The notes beneath the pieces were generated by a model. It searched no databases. It saw only the letters and a program-made list of their open reading frames with translations, and was not told where the DNA came from. The position numbers and the translations under genes are program-made. 37,792 nucleotides of DNA from Gammaproteobacteria bacterium (GTDB lineage Bacteria; Pseudomonadota; Gammaproteobacteria; Pseudomonadales; Pseudohongiellaceae), in assembly GCA_002712055.1 (NCBI GenBank), contig PARV01000050.1:1-37792 (forward strand), in the 5' to 3' direction. Below are positions 24,480 to 34,906 of the stretch, one piece after another. Positions within the stretch are counted from its first letter, which is position 1. Every line of letters starts with the position of its first letter.

Positions 24480-25175
24480 TTATACCTCCAGCCATTCAGC
24501 CCTAACCTCATCCGCTTGCATTAAGCTTGCAGGGGTACCTTCATATACCATTTGGCCATGACCCATGACATATAACCGATGGGAGATATTTAGCGCAATG
24601 TTAAGTTTTTGTTCCACCAGCAGAATTGCAACGCCACGATTGGCGATCTCTTGCAACAAGTTAGCAACCTGTTCGACGATTTTAGGCGCTAGTCCTTCAG
24701 TCGGTTCATCGATCATTATCATGTCGGGGTCGCCCATCAATGTGCGACACATGCATAGCATCTGTTGCTCACCACCACTCAACACTCCACCATCTATTTC
24801 TGCACGGTCTGCTAGATTTGGAAACATGCTAAAGATTTCCTCAACGCTCCAACGTCCGTTCGCTTTACTCGATTTCATTCCCAGTTGGAGGTTTTGACGG
24901 GCGGTGAGGGTAGGAAAAATATCCCTATTCTCCGGTACATAGCCAAGACCGAGGTTAGCGATTTCAAAACTTTTCTTGCCGCCAATTTCCTGATTTTTAA
25001 ATCTTATTGAACCCTGAGGAAGTACCTCTCCCATAATAGCTTTTACAGTAGTGGAGCGACCCACGCCATTTCTGCCAAGCAGACTGACTATTTCCCCTTC
25101 CTGTACATTGAAGGTAATACCCTGAAGGATATGACTCTTGCCGTAGTATGCGTGTAGGTCAGAAACTTCAAGCAT
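24480..25175 (-). CDS. livF: Branched-chain amino acid-type ABC transporter ATP-binding protein (LivF-like)
   Basis: LLGRNGVGRSTTVKAIMG, LSGGEQQMLCMCRTLM signature, MIMIDEPTEGLAP. Confidence 0.9.
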   Translation of the reverse strand: MLEVSDLHAYYGKSHILQGITFNVQEGEIVSLLGRNGVGRSTTVKAIMGEVLPQGSIRFKNQEIGGKKSFEIANLGLGYVPENRDIFPTLTARQNLQLGMKSSKANGRWSVEEIFSMFPNLADRAEIDGGVLSGGEQQMLCMCRTLMGDPDMIMIDEPTEGLAPKIVEQVANLLQEIANRGVAILLVEQKLNIALNISHRLYVMGHGQMVYEGTPASLMQADEVRAEWLEV

Positions 25176-25920
25176 TTATAGTCACCTCTCCGAGGTAGGC
25201 TTCCTGCACTTTCGAATCGGCCCTTATATTTTCGGGCATGTCGCTGGCAATGATTTCCCCATATACAAGCACAGAAATTTTATCTGCAACATCGAATACG
25301 ATATTCATGTCATGTTCTACCATTATGAGTGTTTTGCCAGCAGTGACACGCCTTATCAACTCAACTGTGTTTTGCGCTTCGCTGCGACTCATTCCAGCAA
25401 CCGGTTCGTCTAGCATAATGATCTCGGCATTGCTGGCAATGGCTATGCCAAGCTCTAAGGCACGTTGTTGGGCGTAGGCTAACTCACCTGCTGGATAATG
25501 CATCTTATCTTCCAGGCCGATCTGTTCAAGCACTTGAATTGCTTTTTCATTTAATTCACTTTGTTTGCCCATAAGATGCCAAAATGAATAATTGTATCCA
25601 TTTGGCCACAGAAGGGCGCAGCGGATATTTTCAAAAACATTCATGCGGGCAAAGATATTCGTGACCTGGAAGCTTCTGGCCAAACCTAGGCGGCTAATTT
25701 CAAAGGGGGGCTTATTTTGTATTTCTTGACCTTTGAACTCAATAGTGCCAGCTGTCACATTATAAAGACCGCTTATGAGATGAAAGAGTGTGGATTTCCC
25801 CGCGCCATTGGGACCGATAATAGCGTGTCGTTCACCTTGTTCTATATCCAGGTTCACACCTCGGACAATTTTAGTTTCTCCGAAGTTCTTACGAACAGCT
25901 TTTAAAGAAAGCACGGTCAT
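25168..25920 (-). CDS. livG: Branched-chain amino acid-type ABC transporter ATP-binding protein (LivG-like)
   Basis: GPNGAGKSTLFHLISG, ELAYAQQRALELGIA, IIMLDEPVAGMS; start at 25920 gives ATGA overlap with livM. Confidence 0.9.
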   Translation of the reverse strand: MTVLSLKAVRKNFGETKIVRGVNLDIEQGERHAIIGPNGAGKSTLFHLISGLYNVTAGTIEFKGQEIQNKPPFEISRLGLARSFQVTNIFARMNVFENIRCALLWPNGYNYSFWHLMGKQSELNEKAIQVLEQIGLEDKMHYPAGELAYAQQRALELGIAIASNAEIIMLDEPVAGMSRSEAQNTVELIRRVTAGKTLIMVEHDMNIVFDVADKISVLVYGEIIASDMPENIRADSKVQEAYLGEVTINA

Positions 25921-27155
25921 TTTCCAAAGCTCTCTTTTTCCGGGATTGTATTTGCCCTCTCCCATGCGTCCTTTAGCTGGGGTAGTAAAAGGCGAACGGC
26001 ATAAAATGAAGAACAAGCTATAAATAGAGTGATTAGCCAGGTTGCAAGGCCAGATGGGTTCAATTCCATCCACAAGTAGTGAAATACCTCTTCTTCGGTA
26101 TGGCTCATTTCAATCATGGCGACGCAAGCCATTAGAAATAGGGAAGACGGGATACTAGTAATCAGGTAAGGCATTACTAATGAAGAGAGTTTGCCCCGAA
26201 CCCAAGCTATCTGGTGCATCATGATAAACCCGGCGAATCCCCTTGGTAGAAATAACACTGTAAGCACGAACATAATACCTAGGTATAGCATCCACAGTTC
26301 ACTGTAATTGCTGAGTAGAGAATTCATTAGAGTAAGGATGACGGCGCCAATTATCGGACCAATGAAGTAACCTAGACCTCCGATATAAGCCATCAGGAGG
26401 ACGCGGCCCGAGGTTACAGCATTGAGATTTTCCTCGGTAATGAACTCGTAGTTGAGAGCGAACAGACCACCAGCAATACCAGCGAAAAATCCGGATGCAC
26501 AAAAAGAGATGTAACGAATTTTTCTAGCACTGTAGCCGATGAATTGCGCCCGTTCGGGATTGTCTCGAACAGCATTAGCCATGCGTCCAGCAGGAGTCTG
26601 GGTAAACAAATACATAAACAGGGTTGCAATAAATACCCAAGCAGCGGCCAGATAGTAAATTTCTACATCCTGAAAGAATTCAATACCGAAAAACGAAGGG
26701 CCAAAGGTTCTATCTCCGCTAACACCCGCCTCTCCACCAAAAAAGCTATCAAATATCAGGGATGATGCAGCTATTAGCTCTCCAATACCGAGAGAGATCA
26801 TGGCAAACACAGTACCAGCCTTATGGGTTGAGAAACTGCCGATGAAAAGTGCAGCTAGTAATCCGCTAAAGGCACCCACAAGAGGAATGTAGATGATGGA
26901 AAAATAAATGGTTTCGAATTCGATCATATTTAGAGCGTGTACTGCCAGAAATCCACCTAATCCGAAATAGACAGCATGGCCAAATGACAGCATGCCTCCC
27001 TGCCCTAGGAGCATGTTGTAACTAAGCGCAAAAACAATGGCGATAGCTATTTGATTAAATATCGAAATCGCCAACACCGAATCGAAAAACTGTGGCAGTG
27101 CAAGAAGCACTACCAAATAAACTATCCAGATTGATGATTTCCTAATGAAAGCCAT
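25917..27155 (-). CDS. livM: Branched-chain amino acid-type ABC transporter permease (LivM-like)
   Basis: Multi-TM; SYNMLLGQGGMLSFGHAVYFGLGGFLA; GGLGYFIGPIIGA. Confidence 0.9.
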   Translation of the reverse strand: MAFIRKSSIWIVYLVVLLALPQFFDSVLAISIFNQIAIAIVFALSYNMLLGQGGMLSFGHAVYFGLGGFLAVHALNMIEFETIYFSIIYIPLVGAFSGLLAALFIGSFSTHKAGTVFAMISLGIGELIAASSLIFDSFFGGEAGVSGDRTFGPSFFGIEFFQDVEIYYLAAAWVFIATLFMYLFTQTPAGRMANAVRDNPERAQFIGYSARKIRYISFCASGFFAGIAGGLFALNYEFITEENLNAVTSGRVLLMAYIGGLGYFIGPIIGAVILTLMNSLLSNYSELWMLYLGIMFVLTVLFLPRGFAGFIMMHQIAWVRGKLSSLVMPYLITSIPSSLFLMACVAMIEMSHTEEEVFHYLWMELNPSGLATWLITLFIACSSFYAVRLLLPQLKDAWERANTIPEKESFGK

Positions 27156-27187
27156 TTTCGTGCTCTAGTGGTTTTTGGTCCTATTAG

Positions 27188-28138
27188 CTATTGCTCTCGT
27201 TTGCCCATTAGCCCTGTTGGTCTAAAAATTAAAACAAGGACTAACAGCAAGAAGGGTAGTATCGGTGCTACCTGGGGTAAAGTCAGAGTCCAGAGATCAG
27301 TCAGGGGATGATTGCGGTCGAATTCTAGTCCTAGCACATTCAATAGATCTTGGACTCCAACATCTGAGGCGATTGCATAGGACTGCAACAGCCCGATCAG
27401 CAGAGAGGCTATAAATGCTCCGACCAAAGAACCGAGCCCGCCAATAACGACTATGACGAAGACAATACTCCCAAGTACGACAGCCATCCCCGGGAAGGTG
27501 GTTAATATCGGTCCGGCAATAACTCCTGCTATACCAGCCAGTGCGGTCCCTACTCCAAAAACGCCCATAAAAATAAATGGTACATTGTGCCCAAGATTAG
27601 CGACTGTATGAGGATGAGTGATAGCGGCTTGGATAATGATACCTACCCGACTGCGTGTAAGGAGGTAATACAGTCCGATAAAAATTGAGATTGAGATTCC
27701 GATCATGAAGCCCCGGTAAGCAGGAAATTCCTGACCAAACAATGTGAAGAGTGGAAAGTCGAGAAGGTCTGGGGATTGGTAGTTCTTGGTGTCAGGCCCC
27801 CAAAAGAACTGCACGGCTTCTTCGATCAGGAATGCCATACCGAAAGTAAACACCAACTCAGCCACGTGGCCAGATTGGTGCACCCGCCGTAATCCGTATC
27901 GTTCCACCAGAGCGCCTAGGACTCCAACGATCAGTGGTGCAAAAATTAATCCAGCCCAGAATCCTAGGTAGAGGCTGATTGAATAGGCGAAGTAAGCGCC
28001 GAGCATATAGAAGCTTGCATGCGCAAAGTTTAAAACACCCATCATGCTAAAGATCAGCGTTAGACCGCTAGCCAACATAAATAATAGAAGTCCAGTTACT
28101 AGGCCATTAAGGGTGGCAAAGATGAAGACTTCCAGCAT
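27188..28138 (-). CDS. livH: Branched-chain amino acid-type ABC transporter permease (LivH-like)
   Basis: LASGLTLIFSMMGVLNFAHASFYMLGAYFAY; VIGGLGSLVGAFIASLLIG. Confidence 0.9.
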   Translation of the reverse strand: MLEVFIFATLNGLVTGLLLFMLASGLTLIFSMMGVLNFAHASFYMLGAYFAYSISLYLGFWAGLIFAPLIVGVLGALVERYGLRRVHQSGHVAELVFTFGMAFLIEEAVQFFWGPDTKNYQSPDLLDFPLFTLFGQEFPAYRGFMIGISISIFIGLYYLLTRSRVGIIIQAAITHPHTVANLGHNVPFIFMGVFGVGTALAGIAGVIAGPILTTFPGMAVVLGSIVFVIVVIGGLGSLVGAFIASLLIGLLQSYAIASDVGVQDLLNVLGLEFDRNHPLTDLWTLTLPQVAPILPFLLLVLVLIFRPTGLMGKREQ

Positions 28139-28179
28139 TATTTAGTTTTCGCCTGCTCTGTTACTTCTTGAAGACTGGT

Positions 28180-29445
28180 TTAACGACTTGGGCGTCTCAT
28201 GCGACAGGATGTAGGTACAATGGTTTCTTCTGTTGGTACGTGGTATTCGCTGAACAATCCAAACCCCGAATTGTCTGCGTCAAATTCAATACCTTCATCC
28301 GTATGCACTGAGATGTGCAGTGACTGGAAAATCTGATGATCTTCCCCGCGCATCCAGATTTCTTCTCCACTTAAGGTGGTGAACCGCATATCTTCTAGCG
28401 CTAAAGCAATGTCGTAAGGATCAGTACTCTGTGTTTCTTCCATGGCTAATACGATCATGGAAAGCGCATTAGTGATGCGTGGTTGTGTTACATCGTTGTT
28501 CGGATTGGCTGCCTTGAAAGCGCGGATAAATTCTTTGCGCTGTTCAGTAGGTATAGGGTTGGATGTTTCATTGTGAATAAGACGAATCATATTTTTACCA
28601 TCGGCTCCCAGTGTTGCAGTAATGCCATCGTAGGCGGCATAGAAAGTAAAAATTGGTATGTCTAAGCCATTATCTATAATAGAGCGAGCCAGAGACACCA
28701 TATCCGCACCCCAGTTACCAGTGATCACTGCGTCGGCTCCAGAAGAGACTATCTTAGTAACATAGGGTGTAAAATCTTTTACCTGCCCAATGGGATGTAA
28801 CTCGTTACCGACGATTTCAATATCCGGACGTTTTTCTTTAAGTAGTGCTATTGAAGTATCTGATAATATCTGTCCAAATGAGTAATTTTGACCAATGATA
28901 TACACGCTTTTGATATCTGGATTACTAGCAATATAGTCAGTCAATACATTTAGTTTCATTACTTCGTGCGCGTCGAATCGAAAATGCCAAAAGCTGCAGT
29001 TTTCTTCAGTAAGAATTGGATCAACCGCGGAATAGTTTATTTGCAAAATTTCCTGCCCAGGATTTCGGCGATTGTGACGAGTGACAGCCGAGTTCAGCGC
29101 ATTGGCGACCGCTGAACCGTTGCCCTGAAAAATGATACGTATTCCTTCGCTCACAGCACGGCGGAACTGAATTTGTGTTTCAGTAGGACTGTTTTGGTTA
29201 TCAAGTGGCACGATTTCAATCGTGCGGCCATCCAAAATTCCACCATGAGAGTTAAATAGATAATCTGCCGCAAATTCGAGTTGTTTTAAGCCGCTGGTTC
29301 CTACTGAAGCAAAAGCTCCAGAGAGAGGATCCATGAAAGCGATACGGATGGGCTCTTGGGTACGAGCGGTACTGCTTAGGCTAATTATACTAATTAGCAG
29401 TAGAGTTCTTAATTTCAGAGCATTTTGAATGAATCTAGTAGGCAT
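28180..29445 (-). CDS. ABC transporter substrate-binding protein (periplasmic binding protein, LivK-type)
   Basis: Signal peptide, PIRIAFMDPLSGAFASVGTSGLKQLEFAADYLF; adjacent to permease/ATPase genes. Start probably ATG 29445. Confidence 0.88.
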   Translation of the reverse strand: MPTRFIQNALKLRTLLLISIISLSSTARTQEPIRIAFMDPLSGAFASVGTSGLKQLEFAADYLFNSHGGILDGRTIEIVPLDNQNSPTETQIQFRRAVSEGIRIIFQGNGSAVANALNSAVTRHNRRNPGQEILQINYSAVDPILTEENCSFWHFRFDAHEVMKLNVLTDYIASNPDIKSVYIIGQNYSFGQILSDTSIALLKEKRPDIEIVGNELHPIGQVKDFTPYVTKIVSSGADAVITGNWGADMVSLARSIIDNGLDIPIFTFYAAYDGITATLGADGKNMIRLIHNETSNPIPTEQRKEFIRAFKAANPNNDVTQPRITNALSMIVLAMEETQSTDPYDIALALEDMRFTTLSGEEIWMRGEDHQIFQSLHISVHTDEGIEFDADNSGFGLFSEYHVPTEETIVPTSCRMRRPSR

Positions 29446-29656
29446 ATTCTGTCTTCTTTTTATGAACAAAATTCTGCAGTTAGTCCCTGTGTTCGGGCAA
29501 CCTCGACATTAACCTAGACTGCTAGCTGAAGCAAGAAGTCCCGAATTAAGCCAGGAGTTAGCTGACTATGATGATTTTATTAACTTTTTATAAATTACAA
29601 TTCTGTTTAGTGAAAGTTGAGATTCAGGTAGGATTGGTATTCAGCTCAAATTTCTT

Positions 29657-31124: not shown

Positions 31125-32309
31125 TTAGTAGACTTCAAATAACCCGGCCGCTCCCATGCCTCCCCCCACACACATAGTGCAGATAACATATTTGGCACCA
31201 CGACGTTTACCTTCGATAAGCGCATGACCAACCAGACGAGCTCCACTCATGCCGTACGGGTGTCCGATGGAGATAGCGCCGCCATTAACATTGAGTAGTT
31301 CATTGGGAATGTTCAGTTTGTCTCGACAGTAAACCACCTGAACGGCAAATGCTTCGTTTAATTCCCAAAGACCAATATCGTCCATAGAAAGATTGAAGCG
31401 CTCCAGCAACTTAGGGACCGCGTAGATTGGTCCTATCCCCATTTCGTCAGGGTCCAGGCCAGCCACCGATATGCCACGATAGGCCCCAAGTGGTTCCACA
31501 CCTTTCTGTTCTGCAAGTTTGCTATCCATCAAGACCGAAGCAGACGCGCCGTCGGATAGTTGGCTGGCGTTACCAGCAGTAATCACGCCATCATCAAAGA
31601 CTGTTCTTAGGCCCGATAGCCCTTCCAGAGTTGTTGTGGGGCGGTTTCCTTCATCTTTTTCCAAGGTAATATCGTGGGTACTTTGTTGCTTTGTTTCCTT
31701 ATCCATGAATATCATTTTTGTAGCTAGAGGAGCAATTTCGTCATTAAACTTTCCAGCTTCTTGTGCTGCAGCTGTGCGTTGCTGGCTCTGAAGCGCGAAC
31801 TCGTCCTGCAGTTCCCGAGATATGTTGTAGCGATCGGCTACAGTTTCTGCTGTTTCCAGCATTGACATATAAGCATGTTCTGACTTGGCGACGACATTAG
31901 GGTCATGAGCTCGATAACCGTTGCGGTGTTCATTCTGTACTAGGCTTATCGATTCTAGCCCCCCACCTACCACGATAGGTATGTTGTCACACACAATCTG
32001 CTTGGCAGCGGTAGCAATAGCCATCATGCCCGATGAGCATTGACGATCTATACTCATACCTGAAACGGAATTTGGAAGACCGGCGGCTATGGTTGAGGTA
32101 CGGCCAATATTGCTTCCAGACGATCCTTGCTGCATAGCACAGCCCATGATTACATCATCCACCTCGCCCGGCTCGATTCCGGCTCTCTTCACGGCTTGCG
32201 CAATTACATGGCCACCTAGTGTGGGAGCATCCGTGTCGTTAAAGGCTCCGCGATACGCTTTGCCTATTGGTGTTCGGGCGGTGGATACGATTACTGCTTC
32301 TCTAGTCAT
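31125..32309 (-). CDS. Acetyl-CoA C-acyltransferase (thiolase)
   Basis: [73 protein letters not shown]. Confidence 0.95.
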
Positions 32310-32339: not shown

Positions 32340-32858
32340 CTATTTCTTAACAATAAGTGCGGTTATTTTCTCGATTGCTTCATGCGCTAATTCTACCATC
32401 TCAACGTCTGTGCGATCTTGGATGGGATGAGGGATAAAAGCTCTAGCGACGTTTATGCCGAGAGATTTACCCTGAGCATTAGCTGCCTCTTCAAACTCAC
32501 AAGAAGCTACGAATCCTGAAGGGGTGCCGCGGCTTTCCAAGTCCATGATGTCATGCAAACTGCACGAGGTACATGAACCTCAGTCGGCTAACCCTTCAAT
32601 AACAGCATCGCACTCTGAGCTGATTTTCTGACTAAGTTGTCTCGGCGCGATGCGGGCAAAGGTCGGTTTCATGTAACGATTTACCCTAGCTCCTTTGCCA
32701 AGCAAAAGGGTTTCAATCTCATCAAGAAACTCCTTCCCCCTGGGTTTGGAAATGTCTAGAAGTCCGATAGTTGCTCCTTCCAAGCTTTGTAGACGGGGAA
32801 CTAATTGTCGCTCGGTGGGTGCTAGCTCCGCAGTTGGGTCCAGCAGGAATTCACTCAT
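32340..32858 (-). CDS. UGSC-type selenoprotein, 172 aa with in-frame UGA (Sec93) at 32580-32582; the track splits it into 32580-32858 and 32340-32558
   Basis: Both ORFs share one frame (519 nt = 173 codons). Minus-strand DNA across the junction: GGG/..TTA GCC GAC TGA GGT TCA TGT ACC TCG TGC AGT TTG CAT GAC = L A D U G S C T S C S L H D. GAGGAG RBS before ATG 32858; final stop TAA. Confidence 0.88.
32551..32567 (-). promoter_or_regulatory. Bacterial SECIS-like stem-loop
   Basis: Minus strand TCGTGCA-GTT-TGCATGA: 7-bp stem (one G-U pair), 3-nt loop with G first, apical loop 19 nt after the UGA. Confidence 0.6.
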
Positions 32859-32870
32859 CTTGATCTCCTC

Positions 32871-34313
32871 TCAGTTAATTTGTTGCGAAACCAGTTGACT
32901 GCCTTTGTCTCCAGAGGCTAGCCAGCCGCTTATTATGGCTGAAAACATACCCGCTTTTCCGCCAGCACCGACTATGTGTAATCCGTCGTCTCTGAACTTG
33001 TTGAGTAGCATGTCTTTGAATTTTTCAGGCATGCCTTCAGCGATACCGCCCTTACCGCGAATGATATCAGCCCCAGGTGTTATTAGTTCGTCATATAGCG
33101 CTTTTTTCAAATCGGCTTTGGTCCAGTTATCCTGCCTCAGGACTCGACGGTGCTCTGGGCTAATTACGATCATAGCATCAGCCATTCCGAATGATCGTGT
33201 ATTAGCTACACTACGCAGGCTATTACCCAAGTTTTTGACTAACGATTCCGGTTGACGTGATAGCTGATCTACGAAGGGTTGTACTCCGCTGCCAGCAAAT
33301 AGATTAATCACTGAATCTTCCCTATTGTAACCACGATCCATGGCTAGCGACGGCCACTCTGTATCTGATTCATCTTCGGAGAAACAAAACGTATATTTGC
33401 CTGGAGTTCCCAGAGTGGCTCGATCAATCCCGCCTGGCAATCCCCCACCTACATTGCGGATGATAAGTTGCAGTGCCCGTCCGATTGTTGCGTTTGCCCG
33501 GTTACCTTGTCCAAGAGCGTTAACTCCTGAATTCATTCCGATTTGTTGGGTAATAGGCCCATTAACGATCATTACGGGAGCAGAGAAATACGTCGTACAC
33601 AGCAGGCCATGCATGCAAAATTCATCTTGTAGAGCTGCCTTTAAGGCGGCGATAACTACTTGCAGATGATCTGGCTTGCATCCTGCCATGACAGCATTTA
33701 TGGCGATTTTCTCTACTGTGCAGGGCTTATTATCCGGTGGCACAGAACCAATTATTTCATCGGCAGATAGGTCTGTGCCGGACAGCATGCGCGTTACTCT
33801 CAGCAGTGTAGGTGGAACTACGGGCAGGCCGTCGCTCCAGCCACGTTCAAAACACGCTTCCATTATGTCTTCAGATTCTGCTAGTTCGATCTTCCTAGCC
33901 CGCAGACGATCTGTATCGAAACGGAGCGTCAGAATTTCATTCATCCCAGGATCTTGAGTCTTTGAGCCACAACCCGGTTTGGAATCCACGAGATTGGCAC
34001 CGAGATTTTCGATGCCGGTCAATTCTTGCCACTCACTTTTGTTCCAACCGAATATGCGCGCTTGGTTATCCAAACCATTATCTGAACGAATGAGTGTAGG
34101 AACTATCTCTATGTTCTGTTTGTAGGAGAATTCGAGGGAGGAGTCATCTATTTTAGTAATGACATTTTCCGGAAACGAAGGATCATCTTGGACGTAAATG
34201 GCCAGAGAATCATTAAAGGTTTCTGAAAGTTGCTTGATGACAGGCTCAATTAACGCGCAGGTCGGGCAGTCTTTTTTCACGACAAGCGAATAGTAATGTT
34301 CTTGTTGTTTCAA
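32871..34313 (-). CDS. Two-domain protein: N-terminal thioredoxin-like (CPTC) + conserved C-terminal domain of unknown function
   Basis: YYSLVVKKDCPTCALIEPVIKQL...VPTLIRSDNG; C-terminal RGWSDGLPVVPPTLLRV...AGCKPDHLQVVIAAL. Ends 12 nt before the UGSC gene. Confidence 0.75.
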   Translation of the reverse strand: MKQQEHYYSLVVKKDCPTCALIEPVIKQLSETFNDSLAIYVQDDPSFPENVITKIDDSSLEFSYKQNIEIVPTLIRSDNGLDNQARIFGWNKSEWQELTGIENLGANLVDSKPGCGSKTQDPGMNEILTLRFDTDRLRARKIELAESEDIMEACFERGWSDGLPVVPPTLLRVTRMLSGTDLSADEIIGSVPPDNKPCTVEKIAINAVMAGCKPDHLQVVIAALKAALQDEFCMHGLLCTTYFSAPVMIVNGPITQQIGMNSGVNALGQGNRANATIGRALQLIIRNVGGGLPGGIDRATLGTPGKYTFCFSEDESDTEWPSLAMDRGYNREDSVINLFAGSGVQPFVDQLSRQPESLVKNLGNSLRSVANTRSFGMADAMIVISPEHRRVLRQDNWTKADLKKALYDELITPGADIIRGKGGIAEGMPEKFKDMLLNKFRDDGLHIVGAGGKAGMFSAIISGWLASGDKGSQLVSQQIN

Positions 34314-34342: not shown

Positions 34343-34687
34343 CTAATAAATAAAACTTAGAGTACTAATACCAACTAAGATATTAACTATCATAAACACC
34401 GACGAAGTTCTAGACATCACTTTCCAGAGTTGAGGCCCATTATAGGCGGCCCGGATACCTATGATTAGAGTCACAGTATAAGCTAGCAGCGCGGCTATCA
34501 TTACGAGATAGGCCAGCCATTGGTCATTATCAACGGCTCGGCTGCCCATTACGAAGAACAGGCCACTGCCAAGAAAATAGAGAGCCCAGTAGGTGATAGC
34601 AAGGCCATATTCGCCAGCTAACAGTTTGGCCATAAATGAGCGCTCATCAAACGATTTGTTTTCTGGCGGTTGGTCCAGTTGGTTCAT
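34343..34687 (-). CDS. Small hydrophobic membrane protein of unknown function
   Basis: Three to four TM segments (AITYWALYFLGSGLFFVMG, LAYLVMIAALLAYTVTLIIGI, VFMIVNILVGISTLSFI); probable start ATG 34687 inside ORF 34343-34756. Confidence 0.55.
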   Translation of the reverse strand: MNQLDQPPENKSFDERSFMAKLLAGEYGLAITYWALYFLGSGLFFVMGSRAVDNDQWLAYLVMIAALLAYTVTLIIGIRAAYNGPQLWKVMSRTSSVFMIVNILVGISTLSFIY

Positions 34688-34906
34688 AGATTCAGATCTC
34701 AATAATCCAAGTGTATCGCACACTGGTTGCCGAGAAAACGATCGGCGAACAAGCAATAATTGTTTGCTTTTAGCAAGAGTTACAAAAATATTTTGTATTC
34801 GCTATTTTTATTTGTCTACTTCGAATTTCACGTTGCAGGGTAAATTTACTTACCGATGTAATTGCACTAATCTGGGGTTCAAAGCATAACAAAAGGGGGC
34901 GCTCTC

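Follow-up and report, generated by a model that had tools for sequence, protein, structure and literature searches.

UGSC proteins form a known but uncharacterised family, described by Zhang and Gladyshev in 2008, who reported a fusion of UGSC to an unknown domain and suggested a thioredoxin-like fold (PMC2398784). In glycine and D-proline reductases a Se-C bond is formed and broken and dithiols are used (PMC10298544), and an operon of the GrdB type has been implicated in C-F bond cleavage of fluoroacetate (PMC10838667). The DNA analysed here, a stretch of 37,792 nucleotides from a gammaproteobacterium (“the window”), carries on its minus strand a 172-codon frame at 32340..32858 that by its sequence is a further member of this already known family. 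We annotate it as a UGSC-family selenoprotein gene with Sec at codon 93 on the basis of the frame reading, the family match, the conservation of the TGA and pN/pS. What merits follow-up is the partner, the fold and the link to reductases, and the mechanism is the interesting part.

In a preliminary description the locus had been read as two open reading frames, 32580-32858 and 32340-32558, joined by a selenocysteine codon. Rechecking of the coordinates confirmed that the two are one frame with a single internal TGA at 32580-32582 (minus strand), which is codon 93, followed by seven sense codons and then the TTG of the second ORF. The positions of U93, C96 and C99, recomputed from the read-through, fall at the break, which reads UGSCTSC, and the ribosome-binding site of the first ORF is AGGAG. 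A scan of the whole window for frames made up of two stretches of 40 codons or more that are joined by one TGA and lie outside other genes gave this one alone. Gene callers that treat TGA solely as a stop split the gene into two.

With Cys entered in place of Sec, the complete read-through protein is matched over residues 5-169 by the Pfam model PF24696 (UGSC; E 8.1e-39, 133.9 bits; cut-off 25) and also by NF041046 of NCBIfam (134.1 bits; cut-off 125), so the family membership claimed earlier holds above both curated cut-offs. The Pfam match spans both sides of the UGA, and homologues align across it with U or C at position 93 in a U/C-G-S-C motif. UGSC genes occur in 24 of the 38 genomes that comprise the host and its relatives, and every full-length one carries one TGA; the identical TGA is present in more than 30 UGSC genes from more than 20 separately assembled genomes. 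The predicted Cys homologues (CGSC) do exist, namely in members from genomes that lack selA. Outside the host genus, the TGA form is found together with selA in six genomes (G027, G128, G351, G369, G528 and G697), and the Cys form is found in four genomes without selA (G374, G532, G664 and G761). One further genome, G172, is 97% complete and has the TGA form without selA. This gives selA in 6/7 Sec-UGSC genomes vs. 0/4 Cys-UGSC genomes, with a Fisher p of 0.015, or 0.048 if two genomes of the same genus are counted once; the p of 3e-8 obtained within the order deserves little weight because one genus dominates it. The Cys-form gene of G664 seems to be split between two frames. The gene of G172 (G172:C55, L128) is a TGA-form UGSC fusion, which may reflect contamination, the loss of a contig from the assembly or decay of the gene.

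Immediately upstream of the UGSC gene is a partner gene (32871..34313, minus strand; 480 aa with the TTG start as listed), whose TGA stop lies 12 nt ahead of the UGSC start codon. It encodes an N-terminal thioredoxin domain with the motif CPTC and an uncatalogued, UGSC-associated domain of ~350 aa (~residues 130-480). Sequence searches with this C-terminal domain in Pfam, NCBIfam and the PDB returned no match, and a comparison with UGSC showed that the two are not homologous. Almost all of the UGSC genes examined have this domain as a neighbour or as a fusion partner, the nine copies in G369 among them; the exceptions are L043 and L044, where it was unseen in the short flank examined. Searched on its own in 399 genomes of the phylum, it was found in the host and in five new genomes, all five with UGSC adjacent. 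In G369 (L127, L131-L138, L143) all nine UGSC genes belong to frames of ~550-650 aa in which the partner domain is also encoded, and two of the nine flank selA. UGSC genes located ~2-40 kb from selA, selB or selC are also seen in G351:C69, G697:C31, G369:C2 and the host genus.

On the other side, 30 nt downstream of the UGSC gene, lies a gene for an acetyl-CoA C-acyltransferase (thiolase; 31125..32309, minus strand), a conserved neighbour in the genus. A LIV/urea-type ABC importer consisting of a binding protein, two permeases and two ATPases (24480..29469, minus strand) is likewise a conserved neighbour of the cluster, as is, upstream, a small protein with hydrophobic segments (34343..34756, minus strand). 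The conservation of partner, UGSC, thiolase and importer as a cluster in the host genus suggests that it may serve the catabolism of an imported compound. Within the importer region, the listed GTG start of the gene at 25168-26073 overlaps the upstream permease gene by ~150 nt, and a later start is likely.

The AlphaFold model of the UGSC protein (pLDDT 89) consists of five alternating strand/helix units, Sec93 falling between the third strand and the third helix, and its best structural matches in the PDB include flavodoxins at TM-scores of 0.4-0.5. The fold is thus predicted to be flavodoxin-like and not thioredoxin-like, and the topology proposed in 2008 is not supported by this model of five strands in alternating α/β order. 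The invariant residues K64, Sec93 and H144 come after strands 2, 3 and 5, respectively, so that they would share one edge of the sheet, plausibly the active site.

A second line of comparison points to the reductases. Of 12 UGSC members, five are hit by the GrdB model (best 6.8e-5) and some by the models for GrdF, GrdH, TIGR01918 and PrdB. The best single reductase-model match (4.3e-6) covers model positions 326-408, a segment that we take to contain the Sec of GrdB. The scores lie far below the cut-offs (25.9 bits vs. 602 for TIGR01917; 20.4 vs. 65 for TIGR01918), and the UGSC protein is therefore not filed in a family of the GrdB/PrdB type. When UGSC was compared directly, by profile, with four PrdB-like proteins from the genus, the match was weak (probability 2%, E 0.024) but in register at Sec. 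None of the three profiles (UGSC, partner, PrdB-like) found a relative among PDB sequences. A pyruvoyl partner of the GrdE/PrdA type was not recognised, the partner domain having no Pfam or NCBIfam match, and neither was GrdA at the UGSC locus. These profile matches make UGSC look distantly related to the Sec subunit of glycine and proline reductases. In four genomes of the genus (G020, G010, G013 and G004; L139-L142), a PrdB-like gene (PF07355) contains an in-frame TGA within LVPL-U-PVCHQT; these UPVC genes are probably a second selenoprotein family.

Could the Sec-containing UGSC and its partner instead act as a peroxidase or disulfide reductase? Such an activity would account for the UxxC motif and for the thioredoxin domain on the partner, and we regard it as possible but rather doubtful, because the five predicted β/α units have flavodoxin-like best matches in the PDB, the resemblance is to GrdB/PrdB rather than to thioredoxins, and the partner is a dedicated one in a neighbourhood that looks catabolic. 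A different role for the Sec-containing protein appears unlikely, be it the binding of selenium or a metal, a sensory function or, for example, a hydro-lyase-like reaction carried out together with the partner. This reading draws on the proximity of UGSC genes to sel genes in several lineages and on a weak structural resemblance of the partner domain to fumarases of class I (E 3.6e-4, TM ~0.2), but TM-scores of this size are too low for a fold assignment, and the existence of Cys versions in selA-less genomes speaks against a role specific to selenium. A fumarase-like fold for the partner was, at TM-scores of ~0.2, not accepted.

Purifying selection is equal on either side of the TGA (pN/pS 0.216 before it and 0.223 after it), compared to ~1.6 in the two remaining frames of the downstream part; together with the homology across the TGA and its conservation in relatives, this excludes a chance frame. 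In addition, a SECIS-like hairpin is found at 32535..32582 (minus strand), with the apical stem UCGUGCA-GUU-UGCAUGA at 32551-32567; the 48 nt that start at the TGA have a folding energy of -18.1 kcal/mol (z -2.98). The UGCA-loop-UGCA core of this hairpin presumably resembles the element of E. coli fdhF. Six apical-stem codons show no synonymous change across 17 window-type orthologues, while elsewhere ~57% of pairs differ. Among 61 degenerate columns with an invariant amino acid in these 17 orthologues, the codon is also invariant in only seven, and six of the seven are hairpin codons (hypergeometric p 1.3e-7, which is no strict probability since the genes are related). Pairing of the stem is 100% in 21 distinct sequences, with one compensatory change. 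More distant UGSC genes of the fusion form have different stems, several with GGUC or GGUU loops, and in C-type genes the folding is less clear. The RF00031 (SECIS_1) model gave no match, a result that is uninformative because the controls were likewise unmatched. The hairpin fits the feature published for bacterial SECIS elements, i.e. a small apical loop containing G in a stem-loop directly after the UGA (PMC1088965).

In the host assembly (2.07 Mb, 77% complete), contig C49 carries selA and selB, and contig C52 carries selD. The preliminary description had pointed to selA, selB, selC and selD as the genes to look for; the first, second and fourth are present, and selC, the gene for tRNA-Sec, was not found in this assembly. 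Of 24 congeners, 19 have selC. In G014, a genome of the same genus, the gene order is selB, two genes, selC, more genes, and then partner, UGSC and thiolase. The host contig C49 ends within the last gene that matches G014 before selC, and C53 holds the opposite side, so selC is likely missing because of a contig break in the corresponding interval. That C49 and C53 flank one gap is something we infer, as C53 continues for ~5 kb past the matching block with no counterpart in G014. The selD gene (G000:C52:6779-7696) sits inside a 760-aa open frame, as expected for an Ndh-SelD fusion of the kind described previously (PMC2398784).

The claim that the UGA is decoded as Sec is thus borne out computationally by the hairpin, the host selA, selB and selD genes, the retention of the TGA in full-length relatives and the Cys codon in members from selA-less genomes, and the two ORFs are, by all computational tests run, one gene whose internal TGA is read as Sec. 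It is very improbable that the UGA is a stop, yielding a 92-aa product and a downstream ORF that is separate or dead. TGA does serve as an ordinary stop in this genome, where it ends, for instance, the partner gene just upstream, 4 of the 28 genes in the window having this stop, and selC is absent from the assembly, but this reading is opposed by the equal selection on both sides, the conserved TGA and hairpin, and the Cys at position 93 in selA-less genomes. A sequencing error or pseudogene, conceivable for a single assembly that is 77% complete, is the least credible reading of all given the same TGA in so many separately assembled genomes. TGA conservation, the frozen hairpin codons and pN/pS were the grounds for rejecting both the stop-codon and the pseudogene reading.

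For UGSC as a true selenoprotein and the catalytic subunit of a two-component Sec-dependent reductase, working like component B of the glycine, sarcosine, betaine and D-proline reductases, we see roughly even chances. According to this proposal, SelB and the hairpin 3' of the UGA would direct Sec insertion at residue 93. Sec93, located at the start of helix 3 after strand 3, would attack a polarised bond, either carbon-heteroatom or otherwise electrophilic, in a small substrate that is held jointly with the partner subunit. Cys96 would then resolve the Se adduct, and the thioredoxin domain of the partner would supply the dithiol electrons that reduce the enzyme, while the neighbouring importer and thiolase would handle substrate and product. 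The parts assigned to Sec93, Cys96 and the thioredoxin domain are, like the chemistry, drawn by analogy with glycine and D-proline reductases; the handling of substrate and product by importer and thiolase is suggested by the conserved cluster. More tentatively, UGSC and the partner domain might constitute a new class of Sec- (or Cys-) dependent reductase. Component B of glycine/proline reductase would be its distant relative, its reaction would be the cleavage of a carbon-heteroatom bond in a small molecule that the cell imports, and its genes often lie near sel genes.

How does the locus compare with the described systems? With GrdB, GrdF and GrdH, the selenoprotein B of glycine, sarcosine and betaine reductase, UGSC shares a remote similarity to the C-terminal part and the Sec-x-x-Cys spacing, i.e. 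two residues between Sec and Cys. In contrast to these proteins, it is much shorter, lacks the N-terminal part, scores far under the equivalog cut-offs and has no recognised GrdE/GrdA/GrdCD partner. With PrdB of D-proline reductase it has the UxxC motif in common, and some members match that profile weakly, but PrdB is a separate family and no PrdA partner is seen with UGSC. The UGSC/Unknown_1 protein (PMC2398784) is similar in that UGSC is fused to an uncharacterised domain, and such fusions were found here too; Unknown_1 is possibly the present partner domain. With a fixed partner, a revised fold and a connection to C-N bond-breaking reductases, UGSC ceases to be an orphan and becomes accessible to assay. 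With the UGSC family itself (PF24696 / NF041046) the protein shares the full-length match, the UGSC motif and the bacterial SECIS-like hairpin; nothing essential differs, and in the present subfamily the partner bears an N-terminal thioredoxin domain.
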